The position numbers and the translations under genes were made by a program. Below are positions 3,470 to 43,028 of a stretch of DNA of 64,000 bases, one piece after another; within the stretch, counting starts at the first letter, position 1; each line of letters starts with the position of its first letter. Under the pieces are notes generated by a model. The model worked only from the letters and a program-made list of their open reading frames with translations, searched no databases and was not told the origin of the DNA. The stretch spans positions 558,001-622,000 of the forward strand of contig NZ_QPKJ02000006.1 of the NCBI RefSeq assembly GCF_003344625.1, in the 5' to 3' direction. The DNA is from Solirubrobacter deserti. GTDB taxonomy: Bacteria; Actinomycetota; Thermoleophilia; Solirubrobacterales; Solirubrobacteraceae.

Positions 3470-5533
3470 ATGGCACTTCTGCATCCGAACAAGACCGCGA
3501 CGCTGCTGTTCGACGAAGCCCACAGCCAGGCCTGGACGATCCGGCCTGAGGTCGCGCAGCGGATGCAGCCCGCGCACCCTGAGGACGCCTCGTACGTGAA
3601 GGCCGCGCGCCTGCTCGAGCAGCGCGACTTCACCGTCACGGCGCACACCGACGGCGAGCTCACGGACGTGCCCGCGGACGTGCTGGTCATCGCGCACCCG
3701 TCCGACCCGCGCTGGGAGGCCACCACCGAGACCGGCTCGCCGCGCTTGAACACGCAGGAAATCGCCGCGATCGAGCGCCACGTGCAGGCCGGCGGCGGCC
3801 TGATCGTCCTCGGCGAGTGCGATCACGACCGCTACGGCAACAACCTCAACGAGCTGCTCGCCACCTTCGGCATCCAGATCGAGACCGCGACCGTGCAGGA
3901 CTACGAGCAGTCCGACGCCGCGCCCACCTGGATTCGCCCGCACCTGACCTCCAACGGCCGCGGCGCGCAGGCCGACGTGCTCGCGCGCGTGAACGAGGTC
4001 CGGCTCTACCGCGCCGGGACGCTCGCGCTGTCCAACGGCGCGAAGGTGATCGCGCACGCTTCGCCTTCAGCCACCAAGCCGCACGCGCCGCTCGCGGTGG
4101 TCACGACCTACGGCGAGGGCCGCGTCGTCGTGCTCGCCGACTCCGACCTGTTCGGCGACGACACGATCGACCAGCACGACCACGCCGACCTGTGGCTGAA
4201 CCTCGTGTACTGGGCGGCCGGCCCCGCGTTCGCGCACGCGGAGACGGTCACGCCCTCGGCGGCGAAGAACGACCCCGCCTGGCAGACGCTCAAGGACGAG
4301 ATCGAGCAGCTGCGCACGCTCCAGAACGAGGACGGCTCGACCGACAGCGAGCCCGACCTGACACCGATCATCGACTCGATCGAGGCGCTCGCGCCGTACT
4401 TCCCGCACCAGGCCGACTACCTCGCCGCGCTCGTGCAGGACCTCAAGGACTGGGACTTCGGCGTCCCGGACTTCACCCGCTCGCTCGAGGCCTTCCGGCC
4501 CGACCAGCAGCGCGTCGACGGCATCGAGCACCTCGTCGTGTTCCCGATGTACAAGCAGAACGGCCCGCGCGAGCGCCACTTCGAGGCGCTGATCGTCCGC
4601 GTGCCGTGGCCCGAGTGGCTCGCGCAGCTCGAGCGCACCCGCTTCCAGAACCCGAAGTTCGTCCCGGTCACGTTCGTGGACCGCACGTCCGGCTACGAGT
4701 CCAACTCCGCCGTGCTGTTCCCCGAGACGGTGAGCACGGGCACCAACAAGCCGGCCAACCACTTCGGCGCGATCTTCTGCGACCGCGAGGCCGCCCGCCT
4801 GCGCGCCGTGGCCACGCACGCCGCCGACGTCCTCAGCCTCAACCTCGCCCCGGACGCCGCCGCGCTGCTCAACAGCGCCGAGCTGTCGCGCCAGGCGTTC
4901 GTGCTGTGGGACCTGATCCACGACCGCGCGCACAGCCGCGGCGACCTCCCGTTCGACCCGTTCATGATCCGCCAGCGCCAGCCGTATTGGATGTACGCGC
5001 TGGAGGAGCTGCGCTGCGACCTGACCGCGTTCGTCGAGGCCGTGCAGCTGGAGCGCGAGGGCTTCGCCTTCGCCCGCTACGTCCAGCACGCGATCGTCCT
5101 CGACCGCCTGTTCCGCTTCCCCATCACGGGCCCGCGGGTGCGCAACTACGACGGCCTCGGCGGCCAGCTGCTGTTCGCCTACCTGCACAAGCGCGGCCTG
5201 TTGCACTGGACGAACAACGAGCTCACGATCGAGTGGGAGCGCCTCGCCGACGGCGTCGCGGACCTGCGCGCGGAGATCGAGACCCTCTACAAGCACGGCA
5301 TCGACTCGTCCAAGCCGCAGTACTGGGCCGCGGCGCACGACCTGGTCTCCACCTACGTCAAGCCGGCGGCGGACAGCCGGTGGGCCAAGGGCCGGCGCGA
5401 GCTGTCCGACAGCGGCGACCCGCGCCGGTTCATCGACCTCGTCCAGCCCGACGAGTTCCCGCTCAGCCTGTTCTACGTCTCGCTGCAGGCCAAGCTGGCG
5501 CCCACCGTCGAGCTGGCGGGCACGGCGGCGTGA
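3470..5533 (+). CDS. DUF6421 family protein with N-terminal amidotransferase-like domain
   Basis: 687 aa, starting at ATG 3470 (MALLHPNKTATLLFDEAHSQ). Residues about 1-260 resemble the GATase-like/DUF4350 fold, with DVLVIAHPSDPRW, HVQAGGGLIVLGECDHD and GRVVVLADSDLFGDD. Residues about 280-687 match DUF6421, with RFPITGPRVRNYDGLGGQLL and a GLLHWTNNEL element. No catalytic role is known to me. There is no signal peptide or membrane segment, so it is probably cytoplasmic. The divergent Lrp regulator suggests a link to amino acid or nitrogen status. The two-part architecture is seen directly; whether it is a recent fusion is not known. Confidence 0.8.
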   Translation: MALLHPNKTATLLFDEAHSQAWTIRPEVAQRMQPAHPEDASYVKAARLLEQRDFTVTAHTDGELTDVPADVLVIAHPSDPRWEATTETGSPRLNTQEIAAIERHVQAGGGLIVLGECDHDRYGNNLNELLATFGIQIETATVQDYEQSDAAPTWIRPHLTSNGRGAQADVLARVNEVRLYRAGTLALSNGAKVIAHASPSATKPHAPLAVVTTYGEGRVVVLADSDLFGDDTIDQHDHADLWLNLVYWAAGPAFAHAETVTPSAAKNDPAWQTLKDEIEQLRTLQNEDGSTDSEPDLTPIIDSIEALAPYFPHQADYLAALVQDLKDWDFGVPDFTRSLEAFRPDQQRVDGIEHLVVFPMYKQNGPRERHFEALIVRVPWPEWLAQLERTRFQNPKFVPVTFVDRTSGYESNSAVLFPETVSTGTNKPANHFGAIFCDREAARLRAVATHAADVLSLNLAPDAAALLNSAELSRQAFVLWDLIHDRAHSRGDLPFDPFMIRQRQPYWMYALEELRCDLTAFVEAVQLEREGFAFARYVQHAIVLDRLFRFPITGPRVRNYDGLGGQLLFAYLHKRGLLHWTNNELTIEWERLADGVADLRAEIETLYKHGIDSSKPQYWAAAHDLVSTYVKPAADSRWAKGRRELSDSGDPRRFIDLVQPDEFPLSLFYVSLQAKLAPTVELAGTAA

Positions 5534-5860
5534 CTAGCCGACCTTGACCGTCGACTTCATCGAGGAGTGCAGCGTGCAGACGTACCGGAAGGTGCCGGCC
5601 TTCGTGAACGTCTTGGTGAACGTGTAGCCCTTGGTCGAGGTCGTGCGCGAGCCGGCCCCGCCGCTCGCGGGCGTGACGTTGTGGGCGACGCCGCCCTGCG
5701 TCCAGCGCCAGACGACCTTGTCGCCCTTCTTGATGCTCACCGTGCCGGGGGAGAACGCGTTGTTCTTCACGGCGACGGTCTTGGTCGAGCCGGCCTGGGC
5801 GGGCGCGACGGCCACGGCCGCGGCGATCACGGCCGCGCCGGCGATCAGTGTGCGTCTCAT
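5534..5860 (-). CDS. Secreted cupredoxin (plastocyanin-like copper protein)
   Basis: 108 aa with a Sec signal peptide (about residues 1-22, ending APAQA). The mature domain is a type-1 copper fold. The ligand positions are visible as His in GGVAHNVT and the C-terminal Cys-x2-His-x3-Met of VCTLHSSMKSTV. It opens with AVKNNAFSPGTVSIKKGDKVVW, typical of small plastocyanin/azurin-like proteins. It likely carries electrons or copper outside the membrane. Its stop abuts the convergent DUF6421 stop with no gap. Confidence 0.9.
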   Translation of the reverse strand: MRRTLIAGAAVIAAAVAVAPAQAGSTKTVAVKNNAFSPGTVSIKKGDKVVWRWTQGGVAHNVTPASGGAGSRTTSTKGYTFTKTFTKAGTFRYVCTLHSSMKSTVKVG

Positions 5861-5931
5861 ACCGGGGCAGACGCCGGCGCCGACGTGGCTATTCCGCCCA
5901 GTTCCTGTACTGACGCACCGCCTGCGCGCAC

Positions 5932-6744
5932 CTATATCTGGTAGACCTTGAGCAAGCGCTTTTCGTGCTCGGCGTCGATGCGCGCGATCAGCTCGACGTG
6001 CGGTTCCAGCCCGGACCCGCGCAATTTGGTGGCCATCAGCTCGTCGAGCTGGAACACGCCGGCGGAGTTGTTCATCGCCACCTCCACGCGCACCGCGCGC
6101 TGCTCGCCGGGGACGATCCGGACCTCGTCGATCGCCGCGGCCGAGAGCGAGTGGATGTTCGGCAGGCTCGTCTCGACCGCCACGCGGGAGCGACCGTGCT
6201 CCATGTCCAGCGCGTCCGCGACGCGCACGACGCCCGCCTCCAGCGTGAGCGGCCGGCCGCCCTTGCGGTGGCCGATGATCGCGTGCGTGATCTCGGCGGC
6301 GACGACGGTGCGCTCCGGCTCCTCGTAGGCCGGCTCGAGCAGGCCGTCGAGCAGACCGGCGGCCAGATGGAGGCTGTAGACCTCGTGGTCGACGCGATGG
6401 ATCGACATGCCGAGGTCGTGCAGGAGGCAGCCGCCCGCGATCACCACCTCCGCGTCCTTGTGGGACATCCCGAAGTCGCGCTCCATCGCGGACTCCAGCC
6501 CGGCGCGGTGCAGCAGCCGGAACAGGTGCAGCGCGCGGTTGAGGACGATCTGCAGGTGCACCCAGGAGTGGTCGTTCATGTCCATGCGGGTCGCCGTGAC
6601 CTGCTGGACGTGCCAGCGGGCCTTGAGCTTCACGCTCTCGTTGGCGGCCTCGAGGAAGCGGGCGAGCTTGGGGTTGCGCTCGGTCGGCGCGTGGATGCGC
6701 ATCGCCGCGACGGCTTCGCGCGGCGACAGGGGAGGATCGGTCAT
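5932..6744 (-). CDS. HD-domain phosphohydrolase
   Basis: 270 aa. The HD signature is in GGCLLHDLGMSIHRVDHE, with upstream histidines (VHLQIVLNRALHLFRLLH) and downstream ITHAIIGHRKGGRP and VRVADALDMEHGR, the order expected of HD metal-dependent phosphohydrolases. No GYP motif, membrane segment or nucleotide-synthetase domain is visible. The substrate is unknown. The start at 6744 has GAGG 7 bases upstream; an alternative Met lies 4 codons earlier. It is divergent from the first LVIVD gene, with about 120 bp between them. Confidence 0.85.
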   Translation of the reverse strand: MTDPPLSPREAVAAMRIHAPTERNPKLARFLEAANESVKLKARWHVQQVTATRMDMNDHSWVHLQIVLNRALHLFRLLHRAGLESAMERDFGMSHKDAEVVIAGGCLLHDLGMSIHRVDHEVYSLHLAAGLLDGLLEPAYEEPERTVVAAEITHAIIGHRKGGRPLTLEAGVVRVADALDMEHGRSRVAVETSLPNIHSLSAAAIDEVRIVPGEQRAVRVEVAMNNSAGVFQLDELMATKLRGSGLEPHVELIARIDAEHEKRLLKVYQI

Positions 6745-31285: not shown

Positions 31286-33472
31286 CTATGGGGTGCTGGT
31301 GGAGAGCGTGAACGTCAGCGTCTTGCTGTACGTGCCCGTCCGGAGCGGCTCATTGGCCCCGACGGCTTGCTTGAACGTGACGGTCACCTTGTCGTTGGAG
31401 ACCGGCGCGGTCCAGGCCGCCTTCGAGAACGAGACCTGCAGCGGCGCGGCCAGCGAGAACGCGCCGTTGGTCATGTGCCCGGGGTCGGCCACGGTCAGCG
31501 CCGCGTCACCCGCGGTGGAGATCACGTTCGCCTCGCTCGTGGTGGTGTACTCCTGCGCGGTGCCCGCCACGAACGGCGGGAACTGGGTGGGACCGGCCAG
31601 CGTCAGCGACAGCGTCGCCGGCACCCCGCCGCCCACGGTGTGCGGGAAGTCGGCGCTGTTGACCAGGTACGTGACGTCCTTGGTGGTCACATTCCCGGCC
31701 TTGTCGCGCGCGGTCACGCGGAAGGACTTGGTCCCGACGGTCCCGGTGTCCAGGTTCTCGGCGTCGGCGGTGCAGGACTCGACGCCCGAGTCCCCGTCGG
31801 CGCAGGCGAACTGCACGGCGACCATCGTGCCCTTCTTGTAGCCCTGGCCCTCGTTGGCCGAGGTGATCGTCGGGCCGTCGAGGTCCTGCGCGAACGACGC
31901 GGTCTGCGTCTGCGGGTTCGACAGATCCGGCGTGCGCACGCGCCGCATCAGGTCGTGGTCGAGGTCCCAGGTGATCAGGCCGCGGCGGATGTCGGACTGG
32001 TAGATCTTGCCGTTGTAGAAGTGCGTCGACCAGTCGCCCGCGGTCGGCTGGAAGTGCGTGCTGAACGGCTTCGGATCGGCGTAGGCGACCTCGGTCGCGG
32101 CCGCCGGGTTGGTGAAGTCGATGACCGAGATGCCCTTCTGGTAGTTGCCCGAGACCGCGTAGTAGCCCTTGTAGGTCGGCACGACGTTGAAGTTGTGCCA
32201 CGTGCAGTTCTCGATCGCGCTCTGCGGCCGCGTGTGCGTCATGCGACCGAGCTCGGTGCCCGTCGCCGGGTCGAAGAAGAACAGCAGGTTGTCGTTGGGC
32301 GAGGTCGGGAGGTCGGCCTGGCAGCGCGGGTTGGTGCCGCCGCCCGGCTCCCAGCCGAAGATCAGGACCTTGCCGTCATAGGTGAACGAGCCCGAGTGCG
32401 CCGGGCCGTTGCCGATCTCCGGAACCTGACGCGAATACATCAGCGTCGGGTTGGCGATGCCGCCCGGCGACTCGGGCGTGCCGGCCTCGTCGGCGGGCTT
32501 GCTCGGGTCCCACTTGAACACGGAGAAGCCGTTGCCGCCCGCGCACATCGCCATGTTCAGCTGGCCCATGATCACGTTGTTGTCGTGGCACTGGCGGTTG
32601 GCGACCGCGCGCCGCAGGAAGACGGCGTCGGACGGGTCGTCGAGCTTGATGCGCACGATGTCCATGCCCGGGCAGTTGTTCTCCGAGCCGCCGACGTAGA
32701 CGTAGAAGTAGCCGCGCGCGTCGTCGGGCACGCCGGTCGCCGTGTGGGCGCCGCAGCCGTTCGGGACGCCGGCCCCGTTGCCGGTCGTCGCCATCCGGAC
32801 CTTGCGGACGTAGACCGGGTTCGCCGGGTCGGCGATGTTCCAGATGTGCAGACCCTGGAAGCCCGTCAGGCCCGGGTCGTTGACCGGCTCGTCCATGCAC
32901 GTGGCGCCGGCCTGCGAGCCCGTCGCGCCGCTGTCCCAGGTGCGCACGAGGATGTTGCCGTGCACGATCACGTCGCCCTGGCCGGCCGTGTGCCGGCAGG
33001 CCTCGGTGTTGTAGAGCTGGGTCGGGTTCTTCGGGTCGGAGATGTCGATCACGCGGAACCCGCTCCAGTGGCCCTGGAAGGCGAGGTTGCCCTTGAAGGC
33101 GATGTCGGAGTTGATGTCGGCGAGGCTCGTGCCCGTGTGCAGCGGCGGAACCCGCTTGGAGTAGCCGAGCGGGGTCATGTTCGGCGTGTACTCGAACGAC
33201 GCGACGGCCTCCTCGACCGGGTCGGCGGCGGCGTCGGCGCCCGTCATGGCGACGCTGGCGGCGACCTTGGAGCCCTCCACGGGCGCGCAGTCGGCGTCGT
33301 TGTTCATCGTCGGCAGCGAGCCACCCCAGCCGATGCTGCTGTTGTTGGCCGACAGGAAGGTCGCCGTGGACAGCGACCAGGTCTCCGCGCAGGGATGCGC
33401 GTGCGCCGTGGGCGCGCCGATCGCGAGCACGCCTAATACGCCGGCCAGGCCGGCGAAGCCCTTCAACCGCAT
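31286..33472 (-). CDS. Secreted LVIVD-repeat protein, paralogue 3
   Basis: 728 aa. Sec signal (MRLKGFAGLAGVLGVL...), cleavage predicted before HPCAETW. The propeller region has GFRVIDISDPKNPTQLY, GLHIWNIADPANPVYV and GISVIDFTNPAAATEV. Shared blocks are CHDNNV, CAGGNGFSVFKWD, ENCTWHNFNVVPTYKG and AGDWSTHFYNGKIYQ. The Ig-like domain (CADGDSGVESCTADAENL) precedes the C-terminal domain ending RTGTYSKTLTFTLSTSTP. It is more diverged from copies 1 and 2 than they are from each other. Located 20 kb away on the opposite strand; upstream dyad of the same geometry. Function unknown. Confidence 0.85.
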   Translation of the reverse strand: MRLKGFAGLAGVLGVLAIGAPTAHAHPCAETWSLSTATFLSANNSSIGWGGSLPTMNNDADCAPVEGSKVAASVAMTGADAAADPVEEAVASFEYTPNMTPLGYSKRVPPLHTGTSLADINSDIAFKGNLAFQGHWSGFRVIDISDPKNPTQLYNTEACRHTAGQGDVIVHGNILVRTWDSGATGSQAGATCMDEPVNDPGLTGFQGLHIWNIADPANPVYVRKVRMATTGNGAGVPNGCGAHTATGVPDDARGYFYVYVGGSENNCPGMDIVRIKLDDPSDAVFLRRAVANRQCHDNNVIMGQLNMAMCAGGNGFSVFKWDPSKPADEAGTPESPGGIANPTLMYSRQVPEIGNGPAHSGSFTYDGKVLIFGWEPGGGTNPRCQADLPTSPNDNLLFFFDPATGTELGRMTHTRPQSAIENCTWHNFNVVPTYKGYYAVSGNYQKGISVIDFTNPAAATEVAYADPKPFSTHFQPTAGDWSTHFYNGKIYQSDIRRGLITWDLDHDLMRRVRTPDLSNPQTQTASFAQDLDGPTITSANEGQGYKKGTMVAVQFACADGDSGVESCTADAENLDTGTVGTKSFRVTARDKAGNVTTKDVTYLVNSADFPHTVGGGVPATLSLTLAGPTQFPPFVAGTAQEYTTTSEANVISTAGDAALTVADPGHMTNGAFSLAAPLQVSFSKAAWTAPVSNDKVTVTFKQAVGANEPLRTGTYSKTLTFTLSTSTP

Positions 33473-33526
33473 ACGGAGCCCCTCTCCTTGTCCGAGCCGG
33501 GCCCCTCATGGCCCGCTCACGAGCCA

Positions 33527-33581
33527 GTTAGCCAGGGTCCAGAAGGCGAGTCCACCGCACTCCCCGTTGAGATCCCTCAAC
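33527..33581 (-). promoter_or_regulatory. Dyad plus -10-like element upstream of LVIVD copy 3
   Basis: Read on the minus strand: GTTGAG-N4-CTCAAC (33581-33566), then GGCTAAC (33533-33527) about 32 bases downstream. The 6-4-6 dyad geometry and its distance to the TTAG-like box match copies 1 and 2, although the arm sequence differs. Confidence 0.5.
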
Positions 33582-33695
33582 GCTCAGGCAGCCACACAAC
33601 GATGGATCTCCGTGGCTGTGCACTCCACACAAAATCTCGCCCGGACTGCACGTTCCGGTAGGTTCGCTGCCGGTGCGCCCGACCACGATGAACCG

Positions 33696-36600
33696 ATGCT
33701 CTCGCGCGTCGCGCTCGCCCTCGTCCTCTGGTTGACGCTCGCGGGCACCGCCCACGGCGTGGTCATCGATGTCAACCGCCTCGACGACCGCAGCGGCGGC
33801 GTCTGCGTCCCCGGCGACTGCACGCTGCGCGAGGCGATCGCGTCCGCCGCATCGGGCGACACCGTGCGGCTCGGCGGCGGCCCGAACGTGGCCGTCCACG
33901 CCGTCGAGCAGGGCACGCTCGAGGTCGAGCGCTCGATCACGATCGAAGGCGCCGGCTCCGGGGTGACCAGCATCGACGGCTCGACCAATCCGCGGCGGAT
34001 CCTGCGCGTCCGCCCCGGCGCCACCGTGACCCTGCGCGACCTCACTCTCCAGGGCGGGAGGACCGGCTTCGAAGGCTCCGATCCGCTGGCCGTCGACGGC
34101 GGCGGCGCGCTGCTCAACGAGGGCGAGACGACGGTGGAGCGGGTCGTCTTCAGCGGCAACGGCCACAGCGCCGCAGGCGCGGCGATCGCCAACCGCGGGA
34201 CGCTCACGCTCACCGAGGTCGACGCCTACGGCAACCACGGCGGGTTCGGCGGCGCGCTGTTCGTGCACGGCGGCACCGTGACGATCAACCGCTCGACCCT
34301 GCGGGCCAACGAGGGCCCGAGCGGCGGCGGCGCCGTCTACATGCGGGGCGGGACGGTCGCGCTGACCAACACGACCGTGGCCGACAACGGCTCGTTCGGG
34401 CCGGCCGGCGGCATCCTCAACGCCGGCGGCGCGCTCTCGCTGCTGAACGTGACGATGACCGGCAACATCAACGGTTCCCTGCAGCGGGAGTCCGGCACCA
34501 CCGCCGTGCGCAACACGATCCTCGCGCGCGGCCACAACGACGCGTGCGGCCCGAACGCGATCAGCTCCGACCTCGGCGGCAACCTCGACGAGGACGGCTC
34601 GTGCACCGAGGACCAGCAGCGCGTCGCCGGGCTGGCGCCGTTGGCCGACAACACCGGCGCGACGCCGACCGCGGCGCTGCTGTTCGACAGCGCCGCGATC
34701 GACGCGCCCTTGATCACGGGCTGCCCGGCCGTCGATCAGCGCGGCGTCCCCCGCTCCGGCGCGTGCGACATCGGCGCCTTCGAGGCGGTCAAGGTCGGGG
34801 TGCCGTCGGTGACGACGCTCGACATCGGCGACTCGCTGTTCGCGACCCTGGACCTGCAGGGCGAGGCGGGCGCGCTGTACTTCGAGTACGGCACCGTGCC
34901 CGGCGAGTACGAGCGGACCACCGGCCTCGGCACGGGCGTCGTCGACGGCGCGGTCACCCGCAGCGAGTCGCGGCCGCCCTTCGCGCCCGGGACGACGTAC
35001 TACTACCGCGCGGTGGCGGCGAACGCGTCAGGCGAGGCGCGCGGCGCCGTCAAGTCCTTCATGACCGGGGCCGGGCCGCCGTCGATCGGCCAGCTTCAGG
35101 CGGTTGATGTCGGCGGAGACAGCATCACGGTGCGTTTCACGGTCGACCCGGGCGGCGAAGGTGCCGAGTACCAGGTGCTCGTCGACGGCGCCCCGATGCC
35201 GCCGACGCCGCTGCCGGGCCTGGGCGAGCGGGAGATCACGCGGACGATTCCCGGCCTGGACCCCGACACCATGCACCGGATCCAGATCGTGGTCACCGGG
35301 CCGGGGGGTTCCACGTCCGGCGACGACGGGATCATCGACCGGCGGACGCTGCGCACCTTCGCCGGCGTGCCGGGCGAGCCCCTCACGGTGAGCGACGTCG
35401 GCGTGCCCGTGCAGGGCTGCCCGACGTCGGCGCTGATCCACTGGGGTGACGGGTCGAGCTCCCCCACGACGGCCATCACCTGCGGCCCGGGCGAGGAGTT
35501 CACGCTCGACGCCGCGCACACCTACGCCGCTGGCGGGCGCCACCGGGTGCGGGTCGACTATGACCGCGGCCCGGACGCGCAGCTCGCGACCGTGGTCACG
35601 CCGACGGCGAACCGGCGCGTGCTGTCGGTCAACGTCGCGGGCCGCGGGCGCGTGACCGGAGGCGGGCTCGACTGCCCAGGCGTGTGCTCGGTCGAGCGGC
35701 CCGCGGGTGCGGTGACGCTCACGGCCACGCCGGGCGCGGGCGAGCAGTTCCACGGCTGGGCCGGCAGTTGCCAGGGCACCGGCGCGTGCGAGCTCACCCT
35801 GACGGAGGATGAGCGCGCCTTCGCGGACTTCAGCGGCACGGAGCTGCCGGCCGAGCCGCCGCAGCTCAGCGGCCTCAACGTGGTCGACGTCACCGACGCC
35901 TCCGCGCGCGTGGTCTTCGACGTCGACCCCAACGGCTCGCCCACGACCTACCGCGTGCTGTTGAACGGCGCCCAGGTGACCGGCGGCTTCGCCGGCGCGG
36001 GCGACGATCCGGCCGGCCTCACCTACACGCTCAACGGGCTCGATCCGGGTGAGGCGTACGACGTCGAGGTGCTCGTCAGCAGTGCGGACGGTGAGGACTC
36101 CGCCGCCACGATGTTCGAGACGGCGAACCGCACGAGCGGCGTCGCGGGCGAGCCGACGCCGCTCGTGATCACGGGCGTGGCCTCGTTCTGCCCCGGTGAG
36201 GCGATCGTCGACTGGGGCGACGACACCACCCCCACCGCGCACCCCTTCACGTGCACGGGCACCACGGGCGAGTGGGCGTACCGGCTGTCCGCCGCGCACA
36301 CGTACGCCGAAGCGGGCCGCTACCGGATCGAGGTGGACATCGCCGACTTCACGGAGGTCGTGTACGCCGCGATCGCGGCGCGCCCCGACCCGGGAGTCAC
36401 GCCCACGCCGACGGCGACCGCCACGCCGACGCCGACGCCGACGCCGAACGTGCCGGGCGCGCAGCCGACCCCGACGCCCACGCCCACCCCGACGCCCACA
36501 CCGCAACCCGAGCCGGGCCGCGAGATCGTGGCCGCGCCGGCCGGCGGCACCGTGCTGGTGAAGGTGCCGGGCACGAACCGGTTCGTGGCGCTCACGGCCG

Positions 36601-37031
36601 GTCAGGAGCTCCCGTACGGCACGGAGATCGACACGCGCAAGGGCCGCGTGACGCTGACGTCGATCCCCAAGCCGGGCGCGCCGGCCGAGACCGCGGAGTT
36701 CTACGACGGCCTGTTCAGGCTCTCCTACGTCGGCGGGATCACGAACCTGACGCTCAGCGAGCCGCTCGCGCCCTGCCCGCGCAAGGGCCGCGCGGCGTCC
36801 GCGGCCCAGAAGAAGAAGGCCAAGTCGCGCAAGCTCTGGGGCAAGGGCAAGGGCGCGTTCCGCACCAGCGGGCGCTACAGCGCGGCGACCGTGCGCGGCA
36901 CGACGTGGCTGGTGCAGGACACGTGCGCGGGGACGCTCACGCGCGTCACGCAGGGCGCGGTCGAGGTGCGGGCGGGGAAGAAGCGCGTGATCGTGCGCGC
37001 CGGCAAGCGGTACCTGGCCAAGCCGCGCTAG
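33696..37031 (+). CDS. Secreted CSLREA beta-helix surface protein with FecR-like tail
   Basis: 1,111 aa, starting MLSRVALALVLWLTLAG (signal peptide). Residues about 24-55 match the CSLREA motif (NRLDDRSGG, GDCTLREAIASA), followed by right-handed beta-helix repeats to about 350. Then come fibronectin-III-like domains (YYYRAVAANASGEAR; MHRIQIVVTGPGG), an InlB/Big-like domain (CPGVCSVERPAGAVTLTATPG; FHGWAGSC) and a long Thr-Pro repeat linker (about 902-945). A FecR-like basic C-terminal domain ends GTTWLVQDTCAGTLTRVTQG. Probably cell-surface or secreted adhesin-like. It shares a CTAG stop with the convergent AraC gene. Confidence 0.82.
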   Translation: MLSRVALALVLWLTLAGTAHGVVIDVNRLDDRSGGVCVPGDCTLREAIASAASGDTVRLGGGPNVAVHAVEQGTLEVERSITIEGAGSGVTSIDGSTNPRRILRVRPGATVTLRDLTLQGGRTGFEGSDPLAVDGGGALLNEGETTVERVVFSGNGHSAAGAAIANRGTLTLTEVDAYGNHGGFGGALFVHGGTVTINRSTLRANEGPSGGGAVYMRGGTVALTNTTVADNGSFGPAGGILNAGGALSLLNVTMTGNINGSLQRESGTTAVRNTILARGHNDACGPNAISSDLGGNLDEDGSCTEDQQRVAGLAPLADNTGATPTAALLFDSAAIDAPLITGCPAVDQRGVPRSGACDIGAFEAVKVGVPSVTTLDIGDSLFATLDLQGEAGALYFEYGTVPGEYERTTGLGTGVVDGAVTRSESRPPFAPGTTYYYRAVAANASGEARGAVKSFMTGAGPPSIGQLQAVDVGGDSITVRFTVDPGGEGAEYQVLVDGAPMPPTPLPGLGEREITRTIPGLDPDTMHRIQIVVTGPGGSTSGDDGIIDRRTLRTFAGVPGEPLTVSDVGVPVQGCPTSALIHWGDGSSSPTTAITCGPGEEFTLDAAHTYAAGGRHRVRVDYDRGPDAQLATVVTPTANRRVLSVNVAGRGRVTGGGLDCPGVCSVERPAGAVTLTATPGAGEQFHGWAGSCQGTGACELTLTEDERAFADFSGTELPAEPPQLSGLNVVDVTDASARVVFDVDPNGSPTTYRVLLNGAQVTGGFAGAGDDPAGLTYTLNGLDPGEAYDVEVLVSSADGEDSAATMFETANRTSGVAGEPTPLVITGVASFCPGEAIVDWGDDTTPTAHPFTCTGTTGEWAYRLSAAHTYAEAGRYRIEVDIADFTEVVYAAIAARPDPGVTPTPTATATPTPTPTPNVPGAQPTPTPTPTPTPTPQPEPGREIVAAPAGGTVLVKVPGTNRFVALTAGQELPYGTEIDTRKGRVTLTSIPKPGAPAETAEFYDGLFRLSYVGGITNLTLSEPLAPCPRKGRAASAAQKKKAKSRKLWGKGKGAFRTSGRYSAATVRGTTWLVQDTCAGTLTRVTQGAVEVRAGKKRVIVRAGKRYLAKPR
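36403..36517 (+). repeat. Thr-Pro coding repeat (linker)
   Basis: A tract of CCGACG/CCCACG-type hexamers encodes alternating Thr-Pro in the surface protein. Such tracts are extended, protease-resistant spacers and may vary in length by slippage. It is interrupted by a short NVPGAQ segment. Confidence 0.75.
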
Positions 37032-41879: not shown

Positions 41880-43028
41880 CTACTTGAGCGCGTCCACCTG
41901 CGCCTGGCTGGTGAGCACCGTGCCCGCGGGGACCCTCAGCCCGTCACGGAGCGTGAGGCCGGTCGCCGGCCCGGCGATGATCGCGCCATGCTCGATCGTG
42001 ACGTCGTTGCCGACGGTCGCGCGGAACAGGATCGCGTCGTCGGCGATCGTCAGGCGGTCGCCGACCCTCAGCGGCCCGTGGAAGACGACGTTGTCGTCGG
42101 TGTCGAGGTTGGCGCCGATGCTCACGCTCGTGCCCTTGAGCGCGTGGAACGTGACGCGGTCCTCGATCTCCGCGTTCGCGCCGACGCTGATCGGCGAGCC
42201 CTCGTCGGCGCGGATCGACGTGCGCCGCCCGACCTTCGCGTTCGCACCGAGCCGGACGTCGCCCTCGATCCGCGCGCTCGGCTGGATGACGGCGCCGGCG
42301 CCGATCGTCGGGCGCTTGCCGGGGTTGAAGCTCGTCCTGGGCGAGCGGCTGATCCCGGTCACGGCCGTGTAGCCACTCTTCTCGTACAGGTGCGCGTACT
42401 CCTCGGCGAACTCGCGGTTGACCTCGAGCACGTCGCGCTGGAAGTCCGCGTCGCCCTCGGTCTTCTTGGGCAGCGCGTCCGCCTGCGCCTGCGTGGTGAC
42501 CACCTGGCCGACGCCGACGAACCGGTCCTTCGGAACCTTGACGCCGTCGACGATCGCGCCGTGGCCGACGAACACGCCGTCGGCCAGCGTGGCGTTGACG
42601 ATCCGGGCGCGGAAGCCGATGAACGTGAACTTGCCGATCCGGCTGTTGACCACCTCGGCCTGGTGCGCGAGGCTCGTGCGCGCGCCGGTGGCGGCGGTGC
42701 GCGCGCCGGGCTCGCCGGTGAGCGCGAGCACGGACACGTTGTCCTGCACGTTGGTGCGGTCCCCGAGCTGCACGTGGTGTCCCGGGTCGGCCCGGAGCGT
42801 CGTGTTGGCCGTGACGAACACGCCCTTGCCGACGCGGACGTCGCCGAAGCGCTCGGTCAGCGGGCTGATGAACGACCCGTTGACGACGACCGGCGCGGAG
42901 CTGCTCACTGGCTCGCCGGCGGTGGCTGCGACGGCCACCCCGGTACCCGCCGCGAGCACCCCCGCCGCGACTGCGAGCGCAATGCGGCGAGGTTGATGAG
43001 GTACTTCAGACCCTAGCGATGAACGCAT
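41880..43028 (-). CDS. Secreted tandem gamma-carbonic-anhydrase-like protein
   Basis: 382 aa with a Sec signal (to about residue 35). Two Cam-like left-handed beta-helix domains: residues about 58-222 and 236-382, each ending in VVTTQAQADAL / VLTSQAQVDAL. Domain 1 keeps Arg79, Asp81, Asn93, Gln95 and Asp96 and one zinc His (His122 in SLAHQ), but has Leu101 and Val127 at the other two ligand positions. Domain 2 has His295 (TFHAL) and His317 (FHGP) but Asp312 at the third. The ligands are thus complementary. Start is Met at 43028; a Met at 43052 is an alternative. Confidence 0.85.
   Translation of the reverse strand: MRSSLGSEVPHQPRRIALAVAAGVLAAGTGVAVAATAGEPVSSSAPVVVNGSFISPLTERFGDVRVGKGVFVTANTTLRADPGHHVQLGDRTNVQDNVSVLALTGEPGARTAATGARTSLAHQAEVVNSRIGKFTFIGFRARIVNATLADGVFVGHGAIVDGVKVPKDRFVGVGQVVTTQAQADALPKKTEGDADFQRDVLEVNREFAEEYAHLYEKSGYTAVTGISRSPRTSFNPGKRPTIGAGAVIQPSARIEGDVRLGANAKVGRRTSIRADEGSPISVGANAEIEDRVTFHALKGTSVSIGANLDTDDNVVFHGPLRVGDRLTIADDAILFRATVGNDVTIEHGAIIAGPATGLTLRDGLRVPAGTVLTSQAQVDALK

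Follow-up and report, generated by a model that had tools for sequence, protein, structure and literature searches.

The gamma-class carbonic anhydrase (gamma-CA) Cam of Methanosarcina thermophila (1THJ, 1QRG) is a homotrimer with three equal sites in which each subunit consists of one domain carrying all of the ligands. According to PMC4519908, one monomer provides His81 and His122 and its neighbor provides His117, and Asn73, Gln75, and Asn202 make up the catalytic hydrogen-bond network. The CcmM proteins carry a gamma-CA domain of the same kind at their N terminus (3KWC).

Nonidentical partners with incomplete His sets are described for the gammaCA/gammaCAL heterotrimer of plant mitochondrial complex I. 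In two accounts (PMC9873573 and PMC7447434), metal is found at only one of its three interfaces; CAL2 is without two of the three His, and CA1 of Vigna radiata is without one (PMC7447434). The Arabidopsis structure contains a site to which CA2 contributes Q101, H130, and Y207 and CAL2 contributes H124 and R152 (PMC9873573). Since these CA2 residues share one site, residues of the Gln75, His117, and Asn202 type appear to form one side of an interface; that Y207 stands at the Asn202 position is our own reading. Like the tandem protein described here, this assembly combines partners with incomplete ligand sets. However, the plant proteins come from separate genes of the CamH subclass, are not fused, and do not divide the site cleanly with one side in each partner. 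Among the matches listed from titles and abstract beginnings in the open-licence PubMed Central literature, no tandem gamma-CA with divided ligands was found.

Gene, domains, and ligand positions of the tandem protein

The locus lies in a 64,000-nucleotide stretch of the Solirubrobacter deserti genome (the window; NZ_QPKJ02000006.1, positions 558,001 to 622,000), whose minus strand carries a gene encoding two fused gamma-CA domains (D1 and D2). The reading frame contains no internal stops and ends in a stop codon at 41882-41880; an in-frame ATG upstream of the chosen start would give a slightly longer product. An identical protein (100% identity) occurs at a second S. deserti locus, L007, and the chain contains no cysteines. 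On the plus strand of the same window, a long open reading frame (33177-37031) that contains a GDCTLREAI motif and a linker rich in proline and threonine has, by eye, the look of a surface protein. The features of the tandem gene are as follows, with row counts referring to an alignment of 192 sequences, the window protein and 191 listed hits.

41880..43028, minus strand: gene for the tandem gamma-CA, with a product of 382 aa from ATG 43028 or 390 aa from ATG 43052
42900..43028, minus strand: N-terminal region, residues 1-43, with a hydrophobic segment, a probable export signal judging from the sequence and a family proxy
42363..42899, minus strand: D1, residues 44-222, a beta-helix plus a Cam-like C-terminal helix, keeping the His117 side (alignments)
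42744..42752, minus strand: N93, V94, and Q95, with N93 and Q95 equivalent to Cam Asn73 and Gln75; N93 in 191/191 and Q95 in 191/191 non-gap rows
42726..42728, minus strand: L101, the His81 position of D1; L in 165/192 rows, H in none
42663..42665, minus strand: H122, equivalent to Cam His117 and the sole ligand retained in D1; 192/192 rows
42648..42650, minus strand: V127, which stands in D1 where Cam has His122; relatives have K, R, V, I, or E, never H
42561..42563, minus strand: H156, an extra conserved D1 histidine outside the ligand positions; 192/192 rows
42417..42419, minus strand: N204, equivalent to Cam Asn202, located in the C-terminal helix that D1 has and D2 lacks; 192/192 rows
41883..42362, minus strand: D2, residues 223-382, a beta-helix without C-terminal helix, keeping the His81/His122 side (alignments)
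42201..42212, minus strand: R273, A274, D275, and E276, with R273, D275, and E276 equivalent to Cam Arg59, Asp61, and Glu62; 192/192 rows each
42144..42146, minus strand: H295, equivalent to Cam His81; 192/192 rows
42093..42095, minus strand: D312, which stands in D2 where Cam has His117; the 192 rows have D or N here, and distant members have D, E, N, K, or H
42078..42080, minus strand: H317, equivalent to Cam His122; 192/192 rows

Both halves share the fold family of Cam, and each matches Cam and CcmM chains in HMMER alignments of sequence. The protein scored 58.5 bits against Pfam Hexapep (cut-off of 27), the left-handed hexapeptide beta-helix; the D1 beta-helix spans about residues 44 to 190, and the Cam-like C-terminal helix reaches about residue 222. 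Among solved chains the best match of D1 was the CcmM N-terminal domain. Unlike CcmM, the tandem protein has a second beta-helix domain and probably an export signal, and nothing follows D2: RbcS-like repeats are absent and the chain ends there. Its scores stayed below the cut-offs of both the CcmM model NF053794 (169.6 versus 550 bits) and the NCBI carb_anhyd model NF040597 (178.3 versus 380 bits).

The initial annotation held that D1 retains only the His117 equivalent, with Leu and Val elsewhere, and that D2 retains only the His81 and His122 equivalents, with Asp at the third position. HMMER alignment to Cam chains reproduced both assignments: the three positions read L101, H122, and V127 in D1 and H295, D312, and H317 in D2, where the aligned stretch was ungapped. 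Other histidines at the ligand positions would have spoken against that annotation, and the alignment to Cam placed none there. Thus, three ligand His are present in the chain as a whole, one in D1 and two in D2. The second-shell equivalents of Arg59, Asp61, Glu62, Asn73, Gln75, and Asn202 are likewise all present in the chain and shared between D1 and D2, with Arg59 and Asp61 equivalents in both halves. Whereas each Cam subunit carries the whole set, the tandem protein has it divided over two fused domains, and the Cam catalytic residues are present in the chain as a whole except for the proton shuttle Glu84, whose position in D2 is occupied by K298.

The annotation had also called the protein secreted, which is plausible. 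Of the 186 family rows in which 20 or more residues precede the core, 172 have a strongly hydrophobic N-terminal stretch, a rough proxy for export, and AF2 gave a pLDDT below 50 for residues 1-42. The tandem protein is probably exported, and a location outside the cytoplasm would follow from these sequence features. By eye, two family loci (L050 and L074) have lipoprotein-like or twin-arginine-like N termini. In four relatives of 566 to 578 aa (P0061, P0066, P0113, and P0115), the tandem gamma-CA is preceded at the N terminus by about 190 residues of apparently repetitive sequence.

Division of the site across near and distant relatives

The family alignment combined the window protein with listed hits from two protein searches (best 120 of 466 and best 120 of 629 hits), which scored at most 8000 candidates, so that near relatives are overrepresented among the matches listed. 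Named sources of these hits include Chloroflexota and Actinomycetota as well as cyanobacteria (Scytonema, Brasilonema, Chroogloeocystis, and Synechocystis sp. PCC 7509), and the relatives are named "CcmM" in some sources and "carbonate dehydratase" in others. We denote the ligand pattern by H for His at the Cam His81, His117, and His122 positions and x for any other residue, with D1 before the slash and D2 after it. A survey of homologs for the two-half pattern had been proposed with the initial annotation, and it returned xHx/HxH in 192/192 aligned rows. Only four columns had His in half of the rows or more, namely, those of the three ligands and that of H156 in D1. H156 was also present as His in 22 of the 25 non-gap rows of a mixed near-and-distant set; a role as a proton relay or in structure is possible.

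The second shell followed the ligands. Among these rows from listed hits, the D1 equivalents of Asn73, Gln75, and Asn202 and the D2 equivalents of Arg59, Asp61, and Glu62 were found in every row with a residue at the position (counts above). D2 has E at the Asn73 position in 105/192 rows and otherwise a mixture, E at the Gln75 position in 186/192, and no C-terminal helix to bear Asn202. D1 is weaker at the residues that D2 keeps, with R at the Arg59 position in 172/191 rows, D at Asp61 in 164/191, and P at the Glu62 position in 174/191. Because the second-shell residues divide in the same way as the ligands, each half appears to have retained one side of the site rather than a random subset of its residues. 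The D312 column contains D in 189/192 rows and N in 3/192, position 289 is E in 186/192, position 127 of D1 is K or R in 125/192, and the Glu84 position of D2 is K in 158/192 rows of these near relatives. A pair of cysteines in D1 (region 42663-42899) was present in 180/192 rows and absent as a pair from 11/192, the window protein among them, with 1 row gapped; this pattern suggests a probable disulfide that was lost as a unit.

Whole-genome searches covered the phylum, the order, and the phylum of the genome that carries locus L022 (Chloroflexi). The family was found in 7/396 genomes of the phylum, the window's own genome counted; in 4/232 genomes of the order, including the window's own and one of the same species; and in 7/350 genomes of the Chloroflexi sample. 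Its distribution is patchy. The loci from these searches and L008 gave a set of 17 rows at 15 loci, from which 4 rows were dropped, being two pieces each of L053 and L054 with broken frames and missing positions. Those two loci (L053, G327:C81; L054, G184:C347) contain a frame change and a stop and are either pseudogenes or assembly errors. The 13 intact rows read xHx/HxH in 11 cases and xHx/HHH in 2 (L073 and L075); when the near or middling relatives L008 and L058 are set aside, the 11 intact distant rows read xHx/HxH in 9 cases and xHx/HHH in the same 2. The seven deepest rows (L073-L079) have lost the Arg59 and Glu62 equivalents from D1 in 7/7 and the Asp61 equivalent in 6/7, while D1 retains those of Asn73, Gln75, His117, and Asn202, and D2 retains those of Arg59, Asp61, Glu62, His81, and His122 in 7/7. 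D312 is disfavored as a replacement ligand because the distant rows vary at this position among D, E, N, K, and H.

Other tandem families, control proteins, and trees

A second family of fused gamma-CA domains, on the CamH side of the tree, was found at five loci (L010, L012, L014, L015, and L016, the last at 4947-6038) and in proteins P0193-P0312 (for example, P0258 and P0294). It resembles the window's family in its complementary site halves but has them in reverse order. Its alignment of 125 rows, consisting of the five loci and the best 120 of 880 hits, read HxH/xHx in 121/125 rows and HHH/xHx in 3/125; the remaining row is a 209-aa fragment without the first half (P0205). The xHx half has the Gln75 equivalent in 125/125 rows and the Asn73 equivalent in 119/125, no column other than the three ligands has His in half of the rows or more, and the position corresponding to D312 is R in 120/125. 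The stretch ahead of the core is short (median of 12 residues and at most 41), which leaves little space for an export signal. In the phylum of the host genome G616, the family occurred in 1/398 genomes, namely, G616 itself.

By eye, a third tandem kind in Chloroflexi/Dehalococcoidia metagenome-assembled genomes (L022:1164-2261 and L042:4971-6068) has an HxH half followed by a half with complete His; in the 350-genome sample, the only full-length match to L022 among the matches listed was in its own genome. A control set of 59 other gamma-CA rows, each the best-matching domain of a locus that may hold a second one, was drawn from the 350-genome sample (29 rows, from the matches listed), and from the search that gave L007 and the five second-family loci (29 rows and 1 reference). 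It read HHH in 55/59 rows, HHx in 3/59, and Hxx in 1/59, with neither HxH nor xHx among the 59. Set beside the 192/192 rows of the window's family, this shows the divided pattern to be more than a chance feature. The losses that the initial annotation described as paired are thus paired nearly throughout; one extra His was seen in 2/11 distant rows and in 3/125 second-family rows, and the third tandem kind, at two loci, pairs its HxH half with a complete one.

Trees of single domains were built from chosen rows (13 and 21 rows of the window's family in the first and second trees, respectively, and 11 second-family rows per half), with the third kind included in the first tree and left out of the second. 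Both were midpoint rooted and carried long-branch warnings, the warned rows being retained. The window's family, with Cam and CcmM, was separated from the second family, with CamH-like single-domain rows that we take to be CamH, at support values of 100/99 in the first tree and 100/100 in the second. Under this rooting and these warnings, both halves of the window protein grouped with Cam and CcmM and not with CamH; in the first tree the placement of D1 with Cam and CcmM had weak support, and one of its long-branch warnings links D2 of the window's family to the CamH side. The four domain groups each formed one side of a branch, and one single-domain row fell in with the second family's first half. 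Neither tree recovered a sister relation between the halves of either family, so both duplication and fusion of paralogs could have produced the tandem chains. The xHx halves of the two families did not group together, nor did their HxH halves. Because the families are separated and like halves do not group, the complementary split was most likely reached independently at least twice, in opposite orders, as judged from these alignments and trees.

Proposed composite site and alternative readings

We hypothesize a single composite metal site at an interface between D1 and D2, built from the His117 side of D1 and the His81/His122 side of D2, and assign this a probability of roughly 0.7. The chain would have arisen when two gamma-CA domains from the Cam/CcmM side of the class came to lie in one polypeptide, by duplication or by fusion of paralogs. 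In a normal trimer, each subunit gives its His117 side, with Asn73, Gln75, and Asn202, to one neighbor and its His81/His122 side to the other, and in this family Arg59, Asp61, and Glu62 go with the latter. Metal could then be bound only if D1, through its His117 face, contacts a D2 through the His81/His122 face of the latter, and each chain would have a single set of site residues. The composite-site reading offered by the initial annotation has gained from the invariance across the family, the split of the second shell, the distant members, and the reverse-order family; the face-to-face packing of D1 and D2, together with metal binding and CO2 hydration, we infer.

A closed D1/D2 trimer cannot consist of D1-D2 interfaces alone because at least one like-like interface is forced. 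Such a ring would contain one productive D1-D2 interface, one reversed interface, and one like-like interface, and an open D1-D2 pair would likewise give one site. We speculate that the reversed interface might be held by a salt bridge between K/R127 of D1 and the acids at 289 and 312 of D2. This raises the puzzle of how a threefold assembly can be filled by two types of domain.

The AF2 monomer model was discarded as structural support. Its mean pLDDT was 75.6 and its pTM was 0.77, yet Cam matched it at an rmsd of 11.6, and most of the other structural matches were pentapeptide-repeat proteins and right-handed beta-helices. Coupling analysis gave no excess at the predicted faces (1.70 for the composite set of the window's family versus a null of 2.86), where invariant columns cannot couple. 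Among the matches listed, no solved chain had two domains of its own matching both halves of either family; solved gamma-CA chains had at most 346 residues in one listing, and a 436-residue chain found among the best 60 of 67 covers one half.

Transitions from a homo-oligomer to an obligate hetero-assembly are usually argued by way of ancestral reconstructions. The two families show what may be the end state of such a transition in one chain, second shell included and in opposite orders; because it sits in one chain, twice, the idea is directly testable with half-proteins and point mutants. We consider the chances even that at least two gamma-CA fusions of opposite order degenerated reciprocally into composite-site carbonic anhydrases, with threefold symmetry broken and hetero-association locked in. 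If so, nature would have produced, more than once, an enzyme that reciprocal loss has locked into hetero-association. Checking the ligands domain by domain would miscall such "carbonate dehydratases" as dead, provided that the protein is active.

It is possible, though unlikely, that these proteins are not carbonic anhydrases and that the split sites are reused for another ligand or for assembly, much as the incomplete site of the plant CA/CAL complex holds butyryl- or crotonyl-CoA (PMC9873573); some CamH members are also described as inactive (PMC7447434). However, the known catalytic residues apart from Glu84 are all retained and only shared out between the halves, the His columns of the second family are the three ligands alone, and an exported protein would be expected to encounter little CoA. 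Homotypic trimers are the rule among gamma-CAs, and the near invariance of the D312 column, with E at position 289 in the great majority of rows, would suit separate homotrimers of D1 and D2 in which H295, H317, and D312 form a 2-His-1-carboxylate site and D1 is a mere scaffold. In both families, such an arrangement would give sites with a single His in one half and sites with two His in the other. We think it improbable, given that distant members also have E, N, K, and H at the D312 position, of which K is unfit as a carboxylate; that the second family has R at the corresponding position; and that the His117, Asn73, Gln75, and Asn202 equivalents of D1 are present in every intact row with letters there, although a scaffold needs none of them.

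The geometry of a closed trimer also leaves a third place, which a separate single-domain gamma-CA could occupy, the tandem chain then being two-thirds of a heterotrimer. The window's genome does encode one other gamma-CA, but on inspection its ligand positions are occupied by H, H, and E, and it looks CamH-like, lies on a different contig, and has no sign of export. Of three second-family host genomes searched, which are drafts, two showed no other gamma-CA at an E value of 1e-5. We regard this arrangement as very improbable. Searches of the window's genome gave no match to alpha-class carbonic anhydrase; its other carbonic anhydrases comprise one beta-class match and this gamma-CA (L002, G000:C93:416022-416396), which by eye looks like a single domain with Glu at the third ligand position.
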